Positions 6,212 to 44,188 of a stretch of 46,186 nucleotides of DNA are shown piece after piece (within the stretch, counting starts at the first letter, position 1; every line of letters begins with the position of its first letter). The DNA is from a virus. The position numbers and the translations under genes are program-made. The notes beneath the pieces were generated by a model that saw only the letters and a list, made by a program, of their open reading frames with translations, was not told where the DNA came from and did not search any database. The stretch covers positions 1 through 46,186 of IMG/VR virus record IMGVR_UViG_3300043313_000661, one strand, 5' to 3'.

Positions 6212-6270
6212 GTGGTATCTCCTCGGTCAGATCGTGACCGTGAGCAGCACTTATCATTATTGGTGATAAC
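6212..6270 (-). promoter_or_regulatory. Leader hairpin and TTATCA/TGATAA palindrome
   Basis: On the minus strand a stem-loop CGGTCA-CGATC-TGACCG (6240 down to 6224) sits directly before AGGAG of the 45-residue gene. It closely matches the leader hairpins at 23158-23176 and 24040-24057. Upstream lies an inverted repeat TTATCA-N7-TGATAA (6251-6269), an operator candidate. A -10-like GATAAG and a -35-like TTGCAT (15-bp gap) are present but weak, so the promoter itself is uncertain. Confidence 0.5.
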
Positions 6271-9509: not shown

Positions 9510-9918
9510 CATCGACCTCCTGTTTTGCGAACACTTGATGCACCGCGAACTCGAGCGCGTGGGCGAAGCTGACCTGTCCGGTCACCGAGCGCCAAGGCCA
9601 GGGGAAGGCTTGGTGAGCGTCCCACCTCTCCCCCGGCAGGCCGAGGCCCATACGGCCGTCGCGGTAGCCGATGATGCACGCTCGAGCGCGCGGGTTGCCG
9701 ACATTGTTGAGCAGGCAGATCTGGTCGCACTGCTTCTTCGTTGCCGGTAGGGTGACGATGTCCTTCATCATCTTGACGTCGGCGTAGAGCGTCAGATGCT
9801 TGGTGACGATGAGGAGGTCGAGCGTGCCGATGGCCCACTTGTCCTCGATGCGGCGGGCGAACGAGCCCTCCTTGAGGAGCGTGCGCACCATCTCTCGCTT
9901 GAGGTCCGATTCAAGCAT
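9502..9918 (-). CDS. VRR-NUC-type endonuclease
   Basis: A 138-residue protein with the layout of small phage VRR-NUC / PD-(D/E)XK nucleases. An N-terminal helix (ESDLKREMVRTLLKEG) is followed by GTLDLLIV (D34), YADVKM (D47, K49) and a basic helix LPATKKQCDQICLL. The second acidic position is Asp where many family members have Glu. Expected role: cleavage of branched or other DNA intermediates in recombination or replication. It is coupled to the sigma-like gene by an 8-base overlap. Confidence 0.75.
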   Translation of the reverse strand: MLESDLKREMVRTLLKEGSFARRIEDKWAIGTLDLLIVTKHLTLYADVKMMKDIVTLPATKKQCDQICLLNNVGNPRARACIIGYRDGRMGLGLPGERWDAHQAFPWPWRSVTGQVSFAHALEFAVHQVFAKQEVDDG

Positions 9919-10357
9919 CGGTCACCACCTTGAAGCGCGTCTTGCGGATCGCTCGTTGAACCCTGCGGCCGAAGTGGAAGAGGATCTGACGGACGCGCTC
10001 GCGGCTACAGCCGATCCGATCTCCAATCTGTTGTAGGGTCAGCCCCTCGGCCCGCAGCAGCCATGCGTGCTCCTTCCGAGCCTCGGCATACGTCTGCCGG
10101 TACTTCAGAACGAACTGCGTGGGTGGGGTGAACTCGCCTTGGTATTTGGCCAAAGCCTCGCGGGTGACAGCTACACGGCCAGGACCGTAAATCTCGTGTC
10201 GCACAGGGTATCCGAGCGCCCGGCAGAACCGCTCGATGCGGTTACAGACCACGGCTGAGGTGGTGCCGATATCGGTGCCGATCTCGTGCTGGTAGCGCCC
10301 TTTGACGTATTCGCGGGCGACCCATGCATCTTCGCTGAGGTGCTCGTCAGCGGGCAT
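9911..10357 (-). CDS. HTH protein with sigma-70 region 4-like C-terminus
   Basis: A 148-residue DNA-binding protein. Residues 105-127 (GLTLQQIGDRIGCSRERVRQ) closely match sigma-70 region 4.2, which reads the -35 element. A second possible HTH lies at 20-42 (GRYQHEIGTDIGTTSAVVCN). No region 2 is present, so it is not a full sigma factor. It could be a regulator that remodels host RNA polymerase promoter choice or binds phage promoters directly. GGAGGG is 8 bases before the ATG at 10357. The candidate targets are the -35/TGTC..GACA arrays at 19.9-24.0 kb. Confidence 0.8.
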   Translation of the reverse strand: MPADEHLSEDAWVAREYVKGRYQHEIGTDIGTTSAVVCNRIERFCRALGYPVRHEIYGPGRVAVTREALAKYQGEFTPPTQFVLKYRQTYAEARKEHAWLLRAEGLTLQQIGDRIGCSRERVRQILFHFGRRVQRAIRKTRFKVVTDA

Positions 10358-10652
10358 AGGTGCAGCCCTCCTTGTGCAGCAGGCCTTCCGCGACACCGCA
10401 GCCGGGGCAGGTGCGTGTCGGGATCACGCGCAGCTTCTTGCGCGTCTCCTTGCGGTCGCGGTCAGCGCGCCACCGCCTCGTGATCTCCTCGACCAAACGG
10501 GTGGCGGCGATCTGCAGCTCGTCCTCCACCCCGACGAGAACGTGGGTCGACATGAGCCCCCAGTCAGCGCGAAACGGCCCGGCGGTGATCTTGACGTTGC
10601 CGCGGTCGTCGACCTCGCGCTCGTCGAGGATGATGGTCAGGAACAAGGCCAC
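10347..10652 (-). CDS. Small protein with C-terminal Cys/His cluster
   Basis: About 101 residues from a GTG at 10652, with GGAG 10 bases upstream; GTG codons further upstream are alternatives. The C-terminus CPGCGVAEGLLHKEGCTYAR could bind one zinc ion. The middle is helical and basic (LVEEITRRWRADRDRKETRKK). Function unknown. It overlaps the sigma-like gene's start by 11 bases. Confidence 0.6.
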   Translation of the reverse strand: MALFLTIILDEREVDDRGNVKITAGPFRADWGLMSTHVLVGVEDELQIAATRLVEEITRRWRADRDRKETRKKLRVIPTRTCPGCGVAEGLLHKEGCTYAR

Positions 10653-18671: not shown

Positions 18672-19006
18672 CCGAGGCGCGTCTCCAACAGGTCGAGGAT
18701 ACGGCCCATGTGGTCGATCCTCGAACGCATGTTGCGAGCGGCCTTGCCTGCGATGATCAGGCGGCCATCGTTCTCGTCAGGCAGCTCCATAGGCGTCCAA
18801 TTCGCATGCTCCCCGAGCAGATGCCCTGCGAGGCGATCGAAGCGCTCCTGCAGCTCTGTGAGCGCCTGTGAGGCGTCCGCGATGCTGCTGAACAGGGGCG
18901 CCTCCGGTGCCGGTTCAGCCCCCTTCAGGCTCGGCGGCACGCGGAAAGGAACGGTCGGTCGGACGATGTTGCCGATCTCCCGCTCGAGGTCTGTGCCGCC
19001 GCTCAT
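18668..19006 (-). CDS. Hypothetical helical protein
   Basis: A 112-residue protein starting with ATGA overlap. The N-terminus is Pro-rich; residues about 40-110 are helical (DASQALTELQERFDRLAGHL, ARNMRSRIDHMGRILDLLE). It looks like many small phage proteins of unknown role. No motif recognised. Confidence 0.65.
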   Translation of the reverse strand: MSGGTDLEREIGNIVRPTVPFRVPPSLKGAEPAPEAPLFSSIADASQALTELQERFDRLAGHLLGEHANWTPMELPDENDGRLIIAGKAARNMRSRIDHMGRILDLLETRLG

Positions 19007-19296
19007 GCCGCAGCACTCATGCCAGGACGCCTGAACACGCGGCGCGCGGGCTGCTCCGGCTCCTTCACCGGAGGCCGGCCACGACGCGGCGCATCCTTGG
19101 GCCGCACCGAATCCGCGTTGAACTCGCCCTTCTGCTGCAGATCGTAGAAGTAGGCGTCGAGCGCGCGACGGATGTGCTCCTGCTGCGCGAGGCCGCTCTG
19201 GTGCGAGAGCGCCTCGAGCTTCACTTTGGTCTTCGGCGGGATCCGAAGCGCGGTAATCGCGAGCTTCGTTCCCGCCGGCTTGAACGGCCTAGCCAC
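19003..19296 (-). CDS. Ribbon-helix-helix protein with AT-hook-like motif
   Basis: A 97-residue protein from a GTG at 19296. Residues 12-48 (KLAITALRIPPKTKVKLEAL, then helix QQEHIRRALDAYF) fit a ribbon-helix-helix fold. A later RRGRPPVKE matches an AT-hook. Both bind DNA, so this is a good candidate for the regulator of the divergent promoter pair at 19.9 kb. It is second from the start of the leftward operon, where an early regulator would be expected. Confidence 0.7.
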   Translation of the reverse strand: MARPFKPAGTKLAITALRIPPKTKVKLEALSHQSGLAQQEHIRRALDAYFYDLQQKGEFNADSVRPKDAPRRGRPPVKEPEQPARRVFRRPGMSAAA

Positions 19297-19891: not shown

Positions 19892-19920
19892 TATCTGAGG
19901 GGCTTGGCGCTATATGTCAA
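19892..19920 (-). promoter_or_regulatory. Leftward early promoter
   Basis: Minus strand: TTGACA (19920-19915), 17 bp, CAGATA (19897-19892), or AGATAA with 18 bp. It stands back to back with the rightward promoter, with the two -35 boxes 28 bp apart. It should drive the 19867-to-6074 operon. Unlike the rightward leaders it has no obvious 5' hairpin. Confidence 0.6.
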
Positions 19921-19948
19921 GTGAGAATAGCCCGCACGTTACAGTTGA

Positions 19949-20015
19949 TTGACAGTTATATGCATTAATGATATACTCCTTGCACAGTCGAGATCCCGAC
20001 TGAAGGAGAACTGTC
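19949..20015 (+). promoter_or_regulatory. Rightward promoter P1 with 5' hairpin leader
   Basis: TTGACA (19949-19954), 17 bp, TATACT (19972-19977): a near-consensus sigma-70 promoter. Seven bases after the -10 starts CA, then stem-loop CAGTCG-AGATCC-CGACTG (19985-20002), then GGAG and ATG at 20016. A direct repeat ACAGTT-N5-ACAGTT overlaps the -35. Confidence 0.8.
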
Positions 20016-20231
20016 ATGTACGTCAAGGTCTATTTCCCCGGCGGCAGCGCCACTGTCAAAGAGATGACGCCCAAGCAAATGCGTCAGGCTCAGCGCCTCA
20101 ACCCGCAGCGCACGTTCCTGCCCATCACCGGCCAGGAGGCCCACAACTGGGTCCGCAACGGCGGCGTGCACTCCACCCCGCTCTACGTCAACGAGGATGG
20201 CCGCATCCGCTACGCGAAGGACATGTCATGA
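20016..20231 (+). CDS. Early small protein, first gene of P1 operon
   Basis: A 71-residue basic protein with GGAG 7 bases before its ATG. Segments such as MYVKVYFPGGSATVKEMTP and TPLYVNEDGRIRYAKD suggest a small beta-rich fold. Function unknown. As the first gene behind the strongest rightward promoter it is a candidate host-takeover protein. Confidence 0.7.
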   Translation: MYVKVYFPGGSATVKEMTPKQMRQAQRLNPQRTFLPITGQEAHNWVRNGGVHSTPLYVNEDGRIRYAKDMS

Positions 20232-20434
20232 GCTACAAGCCTGAAGTCAAAACCCCCGGCAGCGGCTGGTCTGGCAACGCCACCCGCTTCGCCACGCAGG
20301 AGGAGGCCGAAGGCTACGTCTTCGACCTCATGATGCGCTGGACCGCCGTCGAAGACACCCGCGTCGTCGAGAGCGACGACCCCGTGCGGTGCAAGTGGAG
20401 CGTCACTGTCGGCCTCGTGTGGCTCGACCGATGA
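20228..20434 (+). CDS. Early small protein
   Basis: A 68-residue protein starting in an ATGA overlap. The layout GWSGNATRFATQEEAEGYVF and VESDDPVRCKWSVTVG resembles small phage proteins carrying a Trp/Phe-rich 'sTRFaT..eA' motif, usually of unknown function. The C-terminus of the gene at 23190 has a similar flavour (WAVREGS..GPFETAKDAW). No role can be assigned. Confidence 0.65.
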   Translation: MSYKPEVKTPGSGWSGNATRFATQEEAEGYVFDLMMRWTAVEDTRVVESDDPVRCKWSVTVGLVWLDR

Positions 20435-20631
20435 GCACGCGATTCCCCAAGGCCGACGTCACCGTCACGCTCACGGGCGAGGAATGGACCACCATCCTCG
20501 GTGTCCTCACCTGGGTGGACGCCACCACCCGCGATGCTGCGCTCTCCCCCAAGGGGCGAGCTGTCTACCACCGCGCAGGCAACAAGCTCGGAGAGCAGGT
20601 TCTGGCCGCACAGAAGAGGATCAACTCGTGA
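20431..20631 (+). CDS. Early small protein
   Basis: A 66-residue protein starting in an ATGA overlap. It has a strand (ADVTVTLTGEEWTTIL) followed by helices. No motif. It lies in the tightly coupled five-gene operon that ends at the terminator at 21041. Confidence 0.65.
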   Translation: MSTRFPKADVTVTLTGEEWTTILGVLTWVDATTRDAALSPKGRAVYHRAGNKLGEQVLAAQKRINS

Positions 20632-20861
20632 GTATCCACCAGATCTTCGGCTACACGATCGAGACGGAGTTCGATCTCAAGCCGATCCCCGATCGCTCGT
20701 TCGATTGGCAGGCGACCCTCGACACCTACGACGGTGCGCCTGATGCCGGCTATCAGCCGGTGGGCTTCGGACGCACCGAGCAGGAGGCGATCGACGCCAT
20801 CCTCGAGGACATCGAGGAGCACACGCAAGGCGCCCTCGCCTGGGATGGTGACCGCTCATGA
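20628..20861 (+). CDS. Early small protein
   Basis: A 77-residue acidic protein from a GTG at 20628 (GTGA overlap). The middle SFDWQATLDTYDGAPDAGYQ and the helix EQEAIDAILEDIEEHT suggest a small alpha/beta fold. It is strongly negative overall, which is seen in some DNA-mimic and anti-defence proteins, but that is speculation. Confidence 0.6.
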   Translation: MSIHQIFGYTIETEFDLKPIPDRSFDWQATLDTYDGAPDAGYQPVGFGRTEQEAIDAILEDIEEHTQGALAWDGDRS

Positions 20862-21028
20862 CCCCGGCACAGTTCGACGCCCTGGTGACGCTGATCACGG
20901 TCATGAACGGACATCTCGCGGAGATGCACGCGCATCCCAACGATCGGCCTCGCCGCAAGGCCATTCAGCGGGAGCTGGACGAAGCCATCGAGGAAACCCG
21001 CAAGATCCTCGTCGATGAGGCGACGTAA
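20858..21028 (+). CDS. Small helical protein (56 aa)
   Basis: A 56-residue protein starting in an ATGA overlap and ending just before the terminator. It is mainly two helices (TPAQFDALVTLITVMNGHLA and KAIQRELDEAIEETRKIL). Coupling and the clean fit between the upstream gene and the terminator support it as real despite its size. Confidence 0.65.
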   Translation: MTPAQFDALVTLITVMNGHLAEMHAHPNDRPRRKAIQRELDEAIEETRKILVDEAT

Positions 21029-21185
21029 GAAAGACACAAGGGCCCCGCTTCGGCGGGGCCTTTTTCGTAGGCCTCGAGCGCGCCGCCTCTTCATGTGGCT
21101 CGTGCGCCATCGCGAGGCCTTCGAACACCGCAACCGCCGCCTTATCCGCGTCCGCTGGGATCGAGACTATAAACATAACGTTTAA
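21015..21185 (+). CDS. Possible Arg-rich small frame through a terminator
   Basis: A 56-codon frame from the ATG at 21015, inside the previous gene, running through the terminator stem and ending at 21185. It encodes a very Arg-rich peptide (MRRRKKDTRAPLRRGLFRRP) and then a more ordinary tail. No good ribosome binding site. It would be translated only if transcription passes the terminator, and may be chance in GC-rich DNA. Confidence 0.25.
   Translation: MRRRKKDTRAPLRRGLFRRPRARRLFMWLVRHREAFEHRNRRLIRVRWDRDYKHNV
21041..21065 (+). terminator. Intrinsic terminator
   Basis: Perfect 8-bp stem GGCCCCGC/GCGGGGCC with a TTCG tetraloop (21041-21060), followed by five T. It closes the P1 operon. Confidence 0.92.
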
Positions 21186-21367
21186 CGTTTGGCGGCCCGC
21201 TCCAGTTTCAAAGCGTAGACCTTGAACTTCTTTCCTTGTTTCGTGAGCCGACAAATAGCCTCGACAAGATCTTCCTTCGTCGCATCGCGTAGCTTGAGGC
21301 CGGGCTTCACTTCGTAATCGAGAAGATTCTCAGGCATCGGAGGTGGGGCAGGCGGCAGTCGTGACAT
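21182..21367 (-). CDS. Small leftward gene between early units
   Basis: A 61-residue protein from the ATG at 21367 with GGGAG upstream. The N-terminus is Pro-rich (MSRLPPAPPPMPENL), followed by a compact basic domain (GLKLRDATKEDLVEAICRLT, KFKVYALKLERAAKR). It is the only leftward gene in the early rightward cluster. A TATAAC lies about 45 bases upstream of the ATG, but I see no matching -35. Function unknown. Confidence 0.6.
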   Translation of the reverse strand: MSRLPPAPPPMPENLLDYEVKPGLKLRDATKEDLVEAICRLTKQGKKFKVYALKLERAAKR

Positions 21368-21434
21368 TAAAAACTCCCATGGTTATGCTGGACCTCGGTC
21401 GATACAGACTGTTATACCCAAAGGCAAGCACAAA

Positions 21435-21529
21435 GGGGGTGCGGCAATATGTCCATTGACATCGTGATGGTTATCTGACATAATAGCTACACGGTCGAGA
21501 TTGGCTCCACCGAGAGAAGGAACTAGGTC
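21435..21529 (+). promoter_or_regulatory. Rightward promoter P2 with half-site array and 5' hairpin
   Basis: GGGGTGCG is followed by GGCA-ATA-TGTC (21443-21453), then TTGACA (21456-21461), 17 bp, and CATAAT (21479-21484). Five bases later CA begins the hairpin CGGT-C-GAG / CTC-C-ACCG (21492-21512), then AAGGA and ATG at 21530. TGTC and the GACA inside the -35 form an inverted pair. Confidence 0.8.
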
Positions 21530-22408
21530 ATGAACATCAATCACTCCACGTCTGCTCGCATCGCTCGCTTTGGCCGCGGTGCTGTTGTCCTCCGCGGTCG
21601 CGGCGAGGCCCTCGACGGTCACACGCTGCGGATGGGCGCCCCCACCCTCTTCGCGGACTCGAAGCACAGCTCGAGGAGCGAGCGCTACGCTCACATCCCC
21701 ACGTACGAGGTGCTCTCGGCCCTCTCCAAGGAAGGCTTCGATCCGTACGAGGTGCGTGTGGGCGGTTCGGGCGATCTCGACAAGCGCAACCACACGAAGC
21801 ACCTCATCCGCCTCCGTCACCGTGGCACCGAGCTGCGCGTGGGTGGGTCGGTCCCCGAGGTGCTCCTGCTGAACTCGCACGACGGCACCAGCGCCTACAA
21901 GCTGATGCACGGCATGTTCCGCATGGTGTGCTCGAACGGGCTCGTGACCGCCGACGAGCTGACCGAGCTGCGCGTCCCGCACAAGGGCGACGTCGTGTCG
22001 AAGGTCATCGAGGGCACCTATCAGGTGCTGAACCAGAGCGGTCGCATCGCCGCGCAAGTGCAGGAGCTGCAGGCGATCACGCTCTCGCGTGCTGAGCAGC
22101 TCGCCTTCGGTGAGAGCGCGGCCATGCTGCGCTGGGCGCCGGACGAGAACGGCTCCTCGACGGTTCCCGTGCGGGCTGAGCAGGTGGTCTACCCGCGCCG
22201 CTCCGAGGACGCGCGTAGCGACCTCTGGTCGACGTTCAACGTGGCGCAGGAGAACCTGCTCAACGGCGGGCTCAACTACTCCACCCGCAACGCGCGAGGC
22301 ACCCTCACGCACCGGCAGGCGCGCCCCGTGCAGGGGATCGACCAGAACACCTCGCTCAATCGAGCGCTGTGGGCCCTCGCGGCCAAGATGGCCGAACTGA
22401 AGGCCTAA
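21530..22408 (+). CDS. DUF932-like protein
   Basis: A 292-residue protein of the DUF932 type (phage/plasmid proteins of unknown biochemical role). Typical segments are HIPTYEVLSALSKEGFDPYE, RLRHRGTELRVGGSVPEVLLLNSHDG, YKLMHGMFRMVCSNGLV and NLLNGGLNYSTRNARGT. It is the sole gene of a transcript with its own promoter P2 and its own terminator, so it is probably made early and in quantity. Confidence 0.85.
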   Translation: MNINHSTSARIARFGRGAVVLRGRGEALDGHTLRMGAPTLFADSKHSSRSERYAHIPTYEVLSALSKEGFDPYEVRVGGSGDLDKRNHTKHLIRLRHRGTELRVGGSVPEVLLLNSHDGTSAYKLMHGMFRMVCSNGLVTADELTELRVPHKGDVVSKVIEGTYQVLNQSGRIAAQVQELQAITLSRAEQLAFGESAAMLRWAPDENGSSTVPVRAEQVVYPRRSEDARSDLWSTFNVAQENLLNGGLNYSTRNARGTLTHRQARPVQGIDQNTSLNRALWALAAKMAELKA

Positions 22409-22425
22409 ACCCTCACCACCTACAG

Positions 22426-22453
22426 GGCCCCGCTTCCGAGCGGGGCCTTTTTT
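22426..22453 (+). terminator. Intrinsic terminator
   Basis: Perfect 9-bp stem GGCCCCGCT/AGCGGGGCC with a TCCG loop (22426-22447) followed by six T. The stem is nearly the same as the one at 21041. Confidence 0.92.
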
Positions 22454-22468
22454 CGTTGGAGATCCACC

Positions 22469-22672
22469 ATGACGTTTGAACGCAAATACGAAATACGCAA
22501 ACCGAACGACGAGCAGCTCATCATCGTTGAGGCCGAGCAGAAGGTGCGCCGCGCCGCTTTCGACCTAGTGGACACGCTCGAGGAGGTCGAGGCATACCTC
22601 GAGATGGATGGGTGCGCACCGGACCTGTTGGCGCGCGTGCGCCGCGTGCTCGCGGAGGCAGGGATCAGGTGA
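22469..22672 (+). CDS. Small helical protein
   Basis: A 67-residue protein with GGAG 7 bases before its ATG. After a polar N-terminus (TFERKYEIRKPNDEQLIIVE) comes an extended helix (KVRRAAFDLVDTLEEVEAYL) and a basic end. It lies just after a terminator without its own clear promoter, so it may rely on read-through. Function unknown. Confidence 0.65.
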   Translation: MTFERKYEIRKPNDEQLIIVEAEQKVRRAAFDLVDTLEEVEAYLEMDGCAPDLLARVRRVLAEAGIR

Positions 22673-22776
22673 TGCGGTGGGACGACGAAAGCGCAGACAC
22701 CGCCAGAATGTTCGTCGCCCTGATCGGGGTGGCGCTGATCCTGGCGGGAATCGCGATCTGGTTCCTGAGGTCGTAG
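22672..22776 (+). CDS. Small single-pass membrane protein (34 aa)
   Basis: Starts in an ATGA overlap. A charged N-terminus (MRWDDESADTAR) is followed by one strongly hydrophobic helix (MFVALIGVALILAGIAIWFL). It could be a membrane-active early protein. The next frame (to 23093) has no good start of its own, so the two may be linked in some way. Confidence 0.55.
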   Translation: MRWDDESADTARMFVALIGVALILAGIAIWFLRS

Positions 22777-23093
22777 CGCCGAGCGCGACGACGCTGGACC
22801 CCAAGCTGGTCCGCATCATCCAAGACATCGAAGGCAGCGTGCGCACCATCACGGCGATCGACCACGCGCGCACGACAGGGCGCCAGTGGGGCCGACAAGC
22901 CGGCCTGGGCGTGCACATCGCGCGATCCTTCGACCGCGCCGATGGCGAGCGCGTAGCGTGGGCCATGCAGGCCGAGCTGCACGACCTACGCACCAAGCTC
23001 GTGGCCGCGCACGGCGAGGAGGTCGCCAAGGTGTGGCATGACGAGGCGGTCGCCTCGTTCGAGGCCACGCTGCGCCAGGAGATGGGATTATAG
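22677..23093 (+). CDS. Hypothetical helical protein, start uncertain
   Basis: The part from about 22780 to 23093 reads as a real helical protein (TTLDPKLVRIIQDIEGSVRT, MQAELHDLRTKLVAAHGEEV). In the overlap with the membrane gene the frame is Arg/Gly-rich and shadow-like. The only normal start is the GTG at 22677, poorly spaced from AGGTG. Alternatives are a non-AUG start near 22790, or a frameshift from the 34-residue membrane gene; no obvious slippery heptamer was seen. Function unknown. Confidence 0.5.
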   Translation: MGRRKRRHRQNVRRPDRGGADPGGNRDLVPEVVAPSATTLDPKLVRIIQDIEGSVRTITAIDHARTTGRQWGRQAGLGVHIARSFDRADGERVAWAMQAELHDLRTKLVAAHGEEVAKVWHDEAVASFEATLRQEMGL

Positions 23094-23098
23094 CCATT

Positions 23099-23189
23099 AG
23101 GGGGTGCGACAATCTGTCCATTTGACATATGTCTGATTATGTGCGATAATGCTTCTACGGTCAGATGAGCTGACCGATAGGAGAACGTC
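23099..23189 (+). promoter_or_regulatory. Rightward promoter P3 with four half-sites and 5' hairpin
   Basis: GGGGGTGCG is followed by alternating GACA (23108), TGTC (23115), GACA (23124) and TGTC (23130). The second GACA is part of -35 TTGACA (23122-23127). After 17 bp comes GATAAT (23145-23150). The leader hairpin is CGGTCAG-ATGAG-CTGACCG (23158-23176), then AGGAG and ATG at 23190. Confidence 0.82.
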
Positions 23190-23870
23190 ATGTCTGTCCG
23201 TCTCATCTCGCAGAACGACATCAACGCCGTCGCCACCTACGCCTTCGTGCACGGCCTCACCACCGACGCCCGCCTCTTCGCTGACGTCCTCGTGCTCCAC
23301 AACATCCGCTCGCTGCAGGAGGCCTACCCTGGCCGCCCGTGGCTGACCGACACGGTCACCGCGGCGCTCGCGTACCAGTACCACCCGGTCGAAGCCACAC
23401 CGCTCGAGGTCGCTGAGCACTGCGAGCAGATCGACTACCAGATGCAGCTCGAGGACTGGGACAGCTCGCACGCCAACGAGGTGCTCGTGGCCGTGAAAGG
23501 CCACGCCAACGGCGACACCGCGGCTTACGAGCGTGGCGTGGCCGACGCCAAGGCGGGCAAGCCGTGCGCCTATGGCTGCCACTTCGGCATGCGCTCGACG
23601 CTCGACAGCAACCGGCAGGCCTACGCCATGGGTCACGCCCATGGCGTGATCGCCAAGGGGCAGCAAGAGCGCAAGGCGTTCGAAGCCGCATGGGCCGCAG
23701 CTGAGCGCCCTGACACGTATTACGAGGGCGCCGACGCCAACGATGGCCGCTCGTTCACGGTCATTCGCGGCACCACAGGTTTCTGGTGGGCCGTCAGGGA
23801 GGGGAGCGAGCATCACGGCCCGTTCGAGACAGCCAAAGACGCGTGGACGGACGCGAGGCGGGCGTTGTGA
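23190..23870 (+). CDS. Hypothetical early protein with repeat-like C-terminus
   Basis: A 226-residue protein with GGAG 6 bases before its ATG. The first 95 residues are helical (ARLFADVLVLHNIRSLQEAY). The middle has Gly/Ala-rich segments with two Cys and several His (YERGVADAKAGKPCAYGCHFG, AMGHAHGVIAKG). The end (GFWWAVREGSEHHGPFETAKDAW) resembles a small stand-alone phage domain. No family recognised. Expressed from its own promoter P3. Confidence 0.7.
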   Translation: MSVRLISQNDINAVATYAFVHGLTTDARLFADVLVLHNIRSLQEAYPGRPWLTDTVTAALAYQYHPVEATPLEVAEHCEQIDYQMQLEDWDSSHANEVLVAVKGHANGDTAAYERGVADAKAGKPCAYGCHFGMRSTLDSNRQAYAMGHAHGVIAKGQQERKAFEAAWAAAERPDTYYEGADANDGRSFTVIRGTTGFWWAVREGSEHHGPFETAKDAWTDARRAL

Positions 23871-23950
23871 TCGAGTACCTGCCGCACGCGCTCGTGGTGC
23901 TGGTCACGCTCGTAGCGATGTGGGCGGTCCTGCCCGACCCTGAGATCTAG
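23867..23950 (+). CDS. Small hydrophobic peptide (27 aa)
   Basis: From a GTG at 23867 overlapping the previous stop. It encodes IEYLPHALVVLVTLVAMWAV and a short acidic tail: one membrane helix. The stop codon lies at the foot of the terminator stem. Confidence 0.5.
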   Translation: MIEYLPHALVVLVTLVAMWAVLPDPEI

Positions 23951-23974
23951 AGGCGCTTCGGCGCCTCTCTTTTT
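23949..23974 (+). terminator. Intrinsic terminator
   Basis: Perfect 8-bp stem AGAGGCGC/GCGCCTCT with a TTCG loop (23949-23968), one C, then five T. It separates P3 from P4. Confidence 0.92.
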
Positions 23975-23983
23975 ATGCGCTTT

Positions 23984-24071
23984 AGGGTGCGACATTATGT
24001 CCAATGGACTATTTATTGATATGTGCTATAATAGCTTCACGGTCGAAACAGCGACCGAGAGGAGATTGATC
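23984..24071 (+). promoter_or_regulatory. Rightward promoter P4 with half-sites and 5' hairpin
   Basis: AGGGTGCGACATTATGTCC (GACA at 23991, TGTC at 23998) leads into a weak -35 TGGACT (24005-24010). After 16 bp comes an extended -10 TGCTATAAT (TATAAT at 24027-24032). The hairpin CGGTCG-AAACAG-CGACCG (24040-24057) is followed by GGAG and GTG at 24072. Confidence 0.8.
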
Positions 24072-24728
24072 GTGAATAAGACAGCTGCGAAGGCCATCGT
24101 TGGTTCGCTCGGTTTCCCGAGCAAGATGCCCGGCACGGCATGGGGCATTAGCGCCCACGACTGCAAGGTCGGCGGCAAGCTGCGGCAGGTCGAGGGCAGC
24201 ACCTGCTCGAGCTGCTACGCCATGAAAGACAATTACGTTTATCCGAGCGTGGCCAAGGCGCATGAGACGCGCAAGGCCGGCCTCGACAATCCGGCCTGGG
24301 TGTCCGGCATGGTGATGCTGCTCCGCGCCACACACAAGCGCGGCATGGGGAAAAACGGACCGATCGACAGCGGCTGGCACCGTTGGTTCGACAGCGGCGA
24401 TTTCCAGAGTGTCGAGCATGTGGCCAAGATTTGCGAGGTCGCGCGCCTAACACCTGAGATTAGGCACTGGGCGGCAACGCGAGAGCTGGCCATGATCGCT
24501 AAGTTCGTTCGGGCCGGCGGCGTTGTGCCCGCGAACCTGACGGTTCGGGTGTCGGCCACGATGGTCGACGATGCGGGCCCGAAAGCATGGCCGACCACAA
24601 GCGGCGTGCACCATTCGAAGCGTGCGCAAGGCAAGGCGTGTCCGGCGCCGTCGAACGATGGCAAGTGCGGCAGCTGCCGCGCGTGTTGGGATCGCGCCGT
24701 TCCGCATGTGTCCTATGGGTTGCACTAG
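24072..24728 (+). CDS. Cys-rich GP88-like phage protein
   Basis: A 218-residue protein from a GTG at 24072, with GGAG 7 bases upstream; an ATG at 23997 lies before the predicted transcript start and is rejected. N-terminal Cys residues (C31, STCSSCYAMK with C45 and C48) and a C-terminal cluster C190, C199, C202, C205 (CX8CX2CX2C) suggest bound metal, possibly Fe-S. The pattern GTAWGISAHDCKVGG...CSSCYAMKDNY...WFDSGDF...RHWAATRELAMI matches what I remember as the phage GP88 family, unknown function, distantly like radical-SAM-type barrels. Expressed from P4. Confidence 0.75.
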   Translation: MNKTAAKAIVGSLGFPSKMPGTAWGISAHDCKVGGKLRQVEGSTCSSCYAMKDNYVYPSVAKAHETRKAGLDNPAWVSGMVMLLRATHKRGMGKNGPIDSGWHRWFDSGDFQSVEHVAKICEVARLTPEIRHWAATRELAMIAKFVRAGGVVPANLTVRVSATMVDDAGPKAWPTTSGVHHSKRAQGKACPAPSNDGKCGSCRACWDRAVPHVSYGLH

Positions 24729-43814: not shown

Positions 43815-44188
43815 AGAAGCCCTATCTCGAGCAGCTGCAGGAGCTGCTCCACGACATGGGCGGCACCCACACCCTCGAGGACATCACCGACCTCATCGAC
43901 TCAGGGTCGATGCAGTCGTTCGTTTCACATGAAACATGGGTGGTGACGACGCTGATCGTCTTCCCCCAGGCGACCGTGCTCGACATCTTCCTCGTCGTCG
44001 GGGAGCAGAAGGACTTCGATGTGCTCGAGAAGCAGATCATGGCGTTCGCGCGTGAGCACGGGGTGACCTTCCTCCGCGTATACGCCCGACCGGGGTTCGA
44101 GTACCTTGTGAAGCGCCGCGACTGGCGGTTCGGCAAGGGCTGGCGGCCCGGCCCGCGCGTCTACACCAAGCGTTTGGACATGCACTGA
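43811..44188 (+). CDS. Hypothetical alpha/beta protein in tail region
   Basis: A 125-residue protein from a GTG at 43811 overlapping the previous stop. Segments TTLIVFPQATVLDIFLVVGE, FDVLEKQIMAFAREHGVTFL and RVYARPGFEYLVKRRDWRFG look like an alpha/beta fold, somewhat acyltransferase (GNAT)-like in its last half. This type of small protein is common beside podovirus tail genes. Function uncertain. Confidence 0.6.
   Translation: MKKPYLEQLQELLHDMGGTHTLEDITDLIDSGSMQSFVSHETWVVTTLIVFPQATVLDIFLVVGEQKDFDVLEKQIMAFAREHGVTFLRVYARPGFEYLVKRRDWRFGKGWRPGPRVYTKRLDMH

Follow-up and report, generated by a model that had tools for sequence, protein, structure and literature searches.

The window, meaning the whole stretch of DNA that was analyzed, is a 46,186-base IMG/VR record of a podovirus, a soil phage, whose proteins include a terminase large subunit and a portal. 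The window covers the entire record, which has the class linear and is possibly a fragment. Small rightward genes lie between leftward genes for DNA polymerase, helicase, and primase. The portal is 71 to 76% identical to the portals of 19 environmental viral contigs, and the first-listed annotated relative by portal is Sinorhizobium phage phiM5 (40% identity). A megablast search of the leader region against phages gave zero matches. No RNA polymerase match was found among the window proteins searched, and the largest open reading frame (ORF), in a record that may be incomplete, has 856 aa; transcription by the host polymerase is therefore assumed. The product of 9911 to 10396 (minus strand), 161 aa long, carries a helix-turn-helix resembling sigma-70 region 4 (Pfam PF04545) and is possibly a phage transcription regulator.

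Promoters and leaders of the window

Only four sigma-70 promoters matching at 10/12 or better occur in the whole window, all with spacers of 16 to 17 nt and an extended −10 TG (Table 1). Each is followed by a 6- to 8-bp hairpin that starts exactly 7 nt past the −10 element, so that all four leaders consist of one unpaired A at the presumed +1, the hairpin, a Shine-Dalgarno (SD) sequence, and the start codon. The original prediction had proposed this common layout for the four rightward units, and all four read as it described; its stems are likewise present, the gap in stem 2 being a C.C mismatch. At 9/12 with a downstream SD sequence, the window has one extra site (37609, minus strand), which lacks a hairpin.

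Table 1. Features of the window and palindrome copies in related phages
Feature	Position	Strand	Details
Promoter 1	19949–19977	+	TTGACA-17-TATACT, 11/12 match
Leader 1	19984–20002	+	Presumed +1 A 19984; hairpin CAGTCG-AGATCC-CGACTG, 19985–20002
SD sequence, unit 1	20004–20008	+	AGGAG, 5′ of ATG 20016; 71-aa ORF, first of a string of small ORFs
Terminator-like hairpin, end of unit 1	21041–21060	+	GGCCCCGCTTCGGCGGGGCC, then T run
Promoter 2	21456–21484	+	TTGACA-17-CATAAT, 11/12 match
Leader 2	21491–21512	+	Presumed +1 A 21491; hairpin CGGTCGAG-ATTGG-CTCCACCG, 21492–21512, mismatch at pair 5
SD sequence, unit 2	21517–21521	+	AAGGA, 5′ of ATG 21530; 292-aa DUF932 protein
Intrinsic terminator, end of unit 2	22424–22449	+	
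Operator-like element	23105–23121	+	TGCGACAATCTGTCCAT, beside −35 of promoter 3; similar at 21440–21456 and 23988–24004
Promoter 3	23122–23150	+	TTGACA-17-GATAAT, 11/12 match
Leader 3	23157–23176	+	Presumed +1 A 23157; hairpin CGGTCAG-ATGAG-CTGACCG, 23158–23176
SD sequence, unit 3	23179–23183	+	AGGAG, 5′ of ATG 23190; 226-aa protein, no family
Intrinsic terminator, end of unit 3	23949–23968	+	
Promoter 4	24005–24032	+	TGGACT-16-TATAAT, 10/12 match
Leader 4	24039–24057	+	Presumed +1 A 24039; hairpin CGGTCG-AAACAG-CGACCG, 24040–24057
SD sequence, unit 4	24060–24064	+	AGGAG, 5′ of GTG 24072; 218-aa GP88-family protein
Fifth candidate leader	6212–6241	−	CGGTCA-CGATC-TGACCG (6240–6224), AGGAG, ATG 6211; 45-aa ORF; weak promoter
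Palindrome copies, L120	2582, 3860, 4929		
Palindrome copies, L122	1683, 3120, 4179, 5736, 5853		

In dinucleotide-preserving shuffles of leaders 1 to 4, an equal hairpin at offset 7 arose with P values of 0.0087, 0.0077, 0.0013, and 0.0040, respectively; their product is about 3e−10 before any penalty for the post hoc choice of offset. The hairpins have predicted energies of −7.9 to −11.2 kcal/mol. When the fold extends into the beginning of the coding sequence, predicted SD accessibility ranges from 0.05 to 0.79 among leaders. Identification of the hairpins as intrinsic terminators or attenuators was rejected, as they lead into the SD sequence and have no T run. By the usual −10 spacing, +1 would be the A directly 5′ of the stem, with the stem running from +2. 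The CA or TA predicted at this position falls within a wider pattern: at the presumed start base, −1/+1 is pyrimidine-purine in 15/15 of the promoter-bearing family leaders (CA 8, TA 6, TG 1).

Leaders in related and unrelated phages

A scan that permitted offsets of 5 to 9 found 11 further leaders in four relatives (four in G008, loci L017 and L120; three in G009; three in G007; and one in G001), and the stem offset is 7 in all 11. The arms of window leader 1 are identical to those of the relative leader G8a (L120, −10 at 2622). No leader hairpin was found in a further relative, G012; the proposal of a uniform phage leader thus stands for recurrence in the window and four relatives and fails for this one. 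Nor was the leader family seen in the annotated relatives phiM5, Ochrobactrum phage OH, and two Manatee Spring phages. Phage OH (L133) has many near-perfect sigma-70 promoters and a recurring leader of its own, which is unstructured.

Homology between phages extends to only some of the genes that follow the leaders (66% identity for the DUF932 gene and 43% over the first half of the gene at 23190). As leaders often precede nonhomologous genes, the leader is a module set before different genes. Scans for orthologues with alignments of two leader genes recovered only a relative that was already known. The DUF932 relatives at L003 to L005 were set aside as proteobacterial mobile-element-like loci without the leader. 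In two other phages, DUF932 homologues (L341 near 4500; L060 upstream of 1518, minus strand) likewise lie downstream of a site resembling a promoter and of a short hairpin whose arms differ. Terminators, present in the window and at one G008 unit boundary, were not detected between the units of G009; the general design thus does not include a structured 3′ end.

A palindrome (best form, TGCGACA-NNN-TGTCGCA) adjoins the −35 element in G009 and in 3/4 G008 leaders, is degenerate in window leaders 2 to 4, and probably binds a regulator. Two of the L122 copies are additional to those upstream of leader promoters. Leaders without the palindrome still have the hairpin, and the two elements are therefore separable. 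A 97-aa CopG-like protein (19003 to 19296, minus strand) was considered as the palindrome repressor and rejected, since its occurrence does not match that of the palindrome: G007 and G001 encode it yet lack the palindrome, whereas in G009, which carries the palindrome, it was not found. Another short element, TGTTTCACGTGAAACA, which we take to be a chromosomal parS site, has perfect copies in two related phages (L122, 5753 to 5768; L124, 7302 to 7317) and a 14/16 match in the window (43921 to 43936), suggesting possible use of host ParB.

To look beyond the relatives, 2.9 million viral contigs were scanned for a promoter followed by ACGGTC, with the 3′ arm not required. GACCG lies at hairpin distance in 12/58 distinct ACGGTC sites, against 0.8 expected from scrambled arms. 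When different GC-rich arms were used as a control, 5/69 sites had a hairpin, against 1.0 expected, so that CGGTC/GACCG arms are overrepresented in the comparison (Fisher P = 0.036). A set of 134 perfect phage promoters picked at random includes only 4 with a good hairpin at offset 7; the mean over offsets is about one. The leader-bearing phages G015, G017, G018, G020, and G021 have no detectable protein similarity to the window, and G014 gave one weak match. Variant stems in leaders include CAGTCG, CGCAT, CCGGC, and CCTGC. The occurrence of promoter, A, and hairpin in phages without shared proteins, also with other arms, indicates that the design recurs with different stems and that CGGTC is favored. 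Distant blastn searches for three unrelated phages that carry the leader pointed to no clear host.

The hairpins are not a general phage trait, as the promoter-rich phages G013 (L380) and G016 (L377) have many near-perfect sigma-70 promoters and stereotyped leaders that mostly lack a hairpin. The whole collection of bacterial genomes gave just 4 matches to a stricter pattern, one before a transfer-messenger RNA (tmRNA) gene and one before a tRNA gene, so bacterial hosts do not generally use this exact leader.

Selection on pairing

Pairing was tested in an alignment of 16 leaders with 8 stem pairs and 500 shuffles. Both sides have changed with pairing kept in 4/8 pairs, against 1.4 expected, and 0/500 shuffles reach this value; the safe count is three pairs, since the compensatory cell at pair 5-19 comes from leader G7b, which is misaligned, and the counts are of nonindependent events among leaders related by descent. 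The covariation score is 0.132, compared with 0.056 in shuffles. In the core five pairs, 94.8% of cells are paired (0/500 shuffles), compared with 10 to 36% when partners are slid. These shuffled and slid tests are fairer than an arm-swap test, which is biased in favor of pairing because arms were delimited by their own pairing. Between orthologues, A-T to G-C double changes occur at pair 7 of the DUF932 leaders (window leader 2 versus G8b) and at pair 6 of the leaders of the gene at 23190 (window leader 3 versus G8c).

The earlier suggestion that the structure is selected thus gains compensatory changes within and between phages, these two double changes included; the covariation analysis that it proposed for related phages was run, and compensatory stem changes were found there. 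What is conserved is the forming of a stem and not a single exact sequence, with the CGGTC preference remaining. Three long stems (window, 21492 to 21512; L120, 3913 to 3933 and 6097 to 6117) share a mismatch at pair 5 (C.C, C.T, and C.A) amid conserved pairs. Sequence comparison therefore supports a hairpin, its fixed distance to the −10 element, selection on pairing, and recurrence without protein similarity.

A proposed protective 5′ end and its alternatives

Structured RNA is also found in the HK022 put antiterminators, which lie in phage leaders from early promoters; they are larger, have two stem-loops, and are not at +2, and units 1 to 3 of the window, in contrast, end in their own terminators. 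The promoters of the N4 virion RNA polymerase contain short DNA hairpins near the early transcription start that are read by a very large virion polymerase, whereas the window has sigma-70 promoters. No ORF in the window, a record that may be incomplete, approaches the several thousand codons expected for the gene of a virion polymerase. Rfam at gathering score gave 0 matches in the window, and weak matches within 19900 to 24200 miss the leaders.

Cluster K mycobacteriophage SAS/ESAS elements likewise recur before the starts of a subset of nonstructural phage genes. The ESAS is an inverted repeat upstream of the SAS with a variable 4- to 13-bp spacer; its repeats are 17 bp, conserved in sequence, and linked to the 13-bp SAS GGGATAGGAGCCC, and the function of both is stated as unknown (PMC3203893). 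In the window, GGGATAGGAGCCC has no match with fewer than two mismatches, and the match number is at chance level.

Hairpin elements at the 5′ end are already known in principle from bacterial mRNAs. The stabilizing 5′ stem-loops of Escherichia coli ompA and papA (Emory 1992, Bouvet 1992, Arnold 1998, and Bricker 1999, as cited in PMC3997798) are matched in the phage leaders by a hairpin at or near the presumed 5′ end, a ribosome site after it, and the proposed explanation through RppH and RNase E. The phage hairpin differs in being minimal (14 to 21 nt), with one presumed unpaired base, and in standing before many different genes; its stabilizing effect is a proposal. The long-known stabilizing effect of 5′ structure is attributed to the need of RppH and RNase E for single-stranded 5′ ends, and the Bacillus subtilis enzyme requires at least two unpaired nucleotides (PMC3997798). 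A stem at +2 would leave one. In the open-access literature, we found no description of such a phage leader, neither of its being used systematically across several genes within one phage, nor of its compensatory evolution, nor of its recurrence without shared proteins.

We favor, as the probable explanation, a 5′-terminal hairpin with one unpaired nucleotide that blocks both pyrophosphate removal by RppH and 5′-end-dependent decay by RNase E. Host RNA polymerase would transcribe each unit from its consensus promoter, starting at the A seven bases past the −10 element. The RNA would then begin with pppA and continue immediately into a 5- to 8-bp hairpin, followed by the SD sequence and start codon, within a whole 5′ untranslated region (UTR) of 24 to 46 nt. 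If the host enzymes behave as assumed, RppH could not remove the pyrophosphate from the single unpaired 5′ base, and RNase E would be barred from the 5′-end-dependent route. The short phage mRNAs would be longer-lived, with the ribosome site left outside the hairpin, and the RNAs of window units 1 to 3 would be structured at both ends. The original prediction had proposed the same stabilizing role and suggested in addition that the messages would be early and well translated. We infer the exact +1, the RNA stabilization, the enzymes involved, and the timing of expression.

The proximity of the SD sequence and start codon to the hairpin in nearly every leader, within so short a UTR, would also suit a hairpin acting mainly on translation, as a compact 5′ fold that leaves the SD sequence unpaired or as a ribosome standby site. 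That reading is unlikely: predicted SD accessibility is not uniform, and the stem lies at a fixed distance from the promoter, whereas the stem-to-start distance varies, most in G8b and G7b. A stem positioned relative to the promoter, and not to the start codon, is more easily explained by end protection than by a role in translation alone. The preference for CGGTC/GACCG arms is not what end protection by itself would lead one to expect. A phage or host RNA-binding protein that recognized this stem, for translational control or antitermination, would account for the recurrence of CGGTC arms in phages without protein similarity, above other GC-rich arms, and for the retained pair-5 mismatch in long stems. 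Loop length and sequence vary, however, the variant stems listed above exist, no Rfam family matches, and antitermination is ill suited to window units with terminators of their own; we consider such a site quite unlikely.

The arms that most leaders have in common, and a fixed promoter distance, would equally be expected of a DNA operator overlapping +1 and bound by a dimeric repressor. Within one phage, though, the arms differ, and the outer-end span is 14 to 21 nt (up to 7 bp of variation) with loops of 4 to 8 nt, which makes the repeat unsuited to one dimeric DNA-binding protein. The stems of G9a, G014, and G020 contain G-U pairs, which break a DNA palindrome, and upstream of −35, several promoters carry an operator-like palindrome distinct from the hairpin. 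The variable span and loop and the G-U pairs argue for an RNA element rather than a DNA operator, leaving the latter very unlikely. Descent probably relates the family leaders, as it would if a single ancestral leader had been duplicated and pairing had not been under selection; chance GC-rich palindromes after promoters are the other form of this reading. Given the leader shuffle P values, the compensatory-change tests, and the appearance of other arms in phages that lack protein similarity, both are scarcely credible.

A broader form of the end-protection reading is offered tentatively, as possible but doubtful: unrelated phages may have repeatedly evolved or exchanged a standard 5′ end of pppA plus hairpin, a cap-like shield against RppH, with the preferred CGGTC/GACCG stem acting beyond the RppH block. 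In a 2010 review of posttranscriptional control in T4, what RppH does during infection is listed as still to be investigated (PMC3014915), and the leaders would offer a direct way of testing whether phage mRNAs escape this enzyme. Their predicted signature, a YA start, a stem at +2, and then an SD sequence, is searchable in phage transcript start maps, and the short leader could double as a compact stabilizing 5′ UTR. If end protection is correct, several phages would shield their mRNAs, on gene after gene, by the structure of the transcript end and not by a protein.
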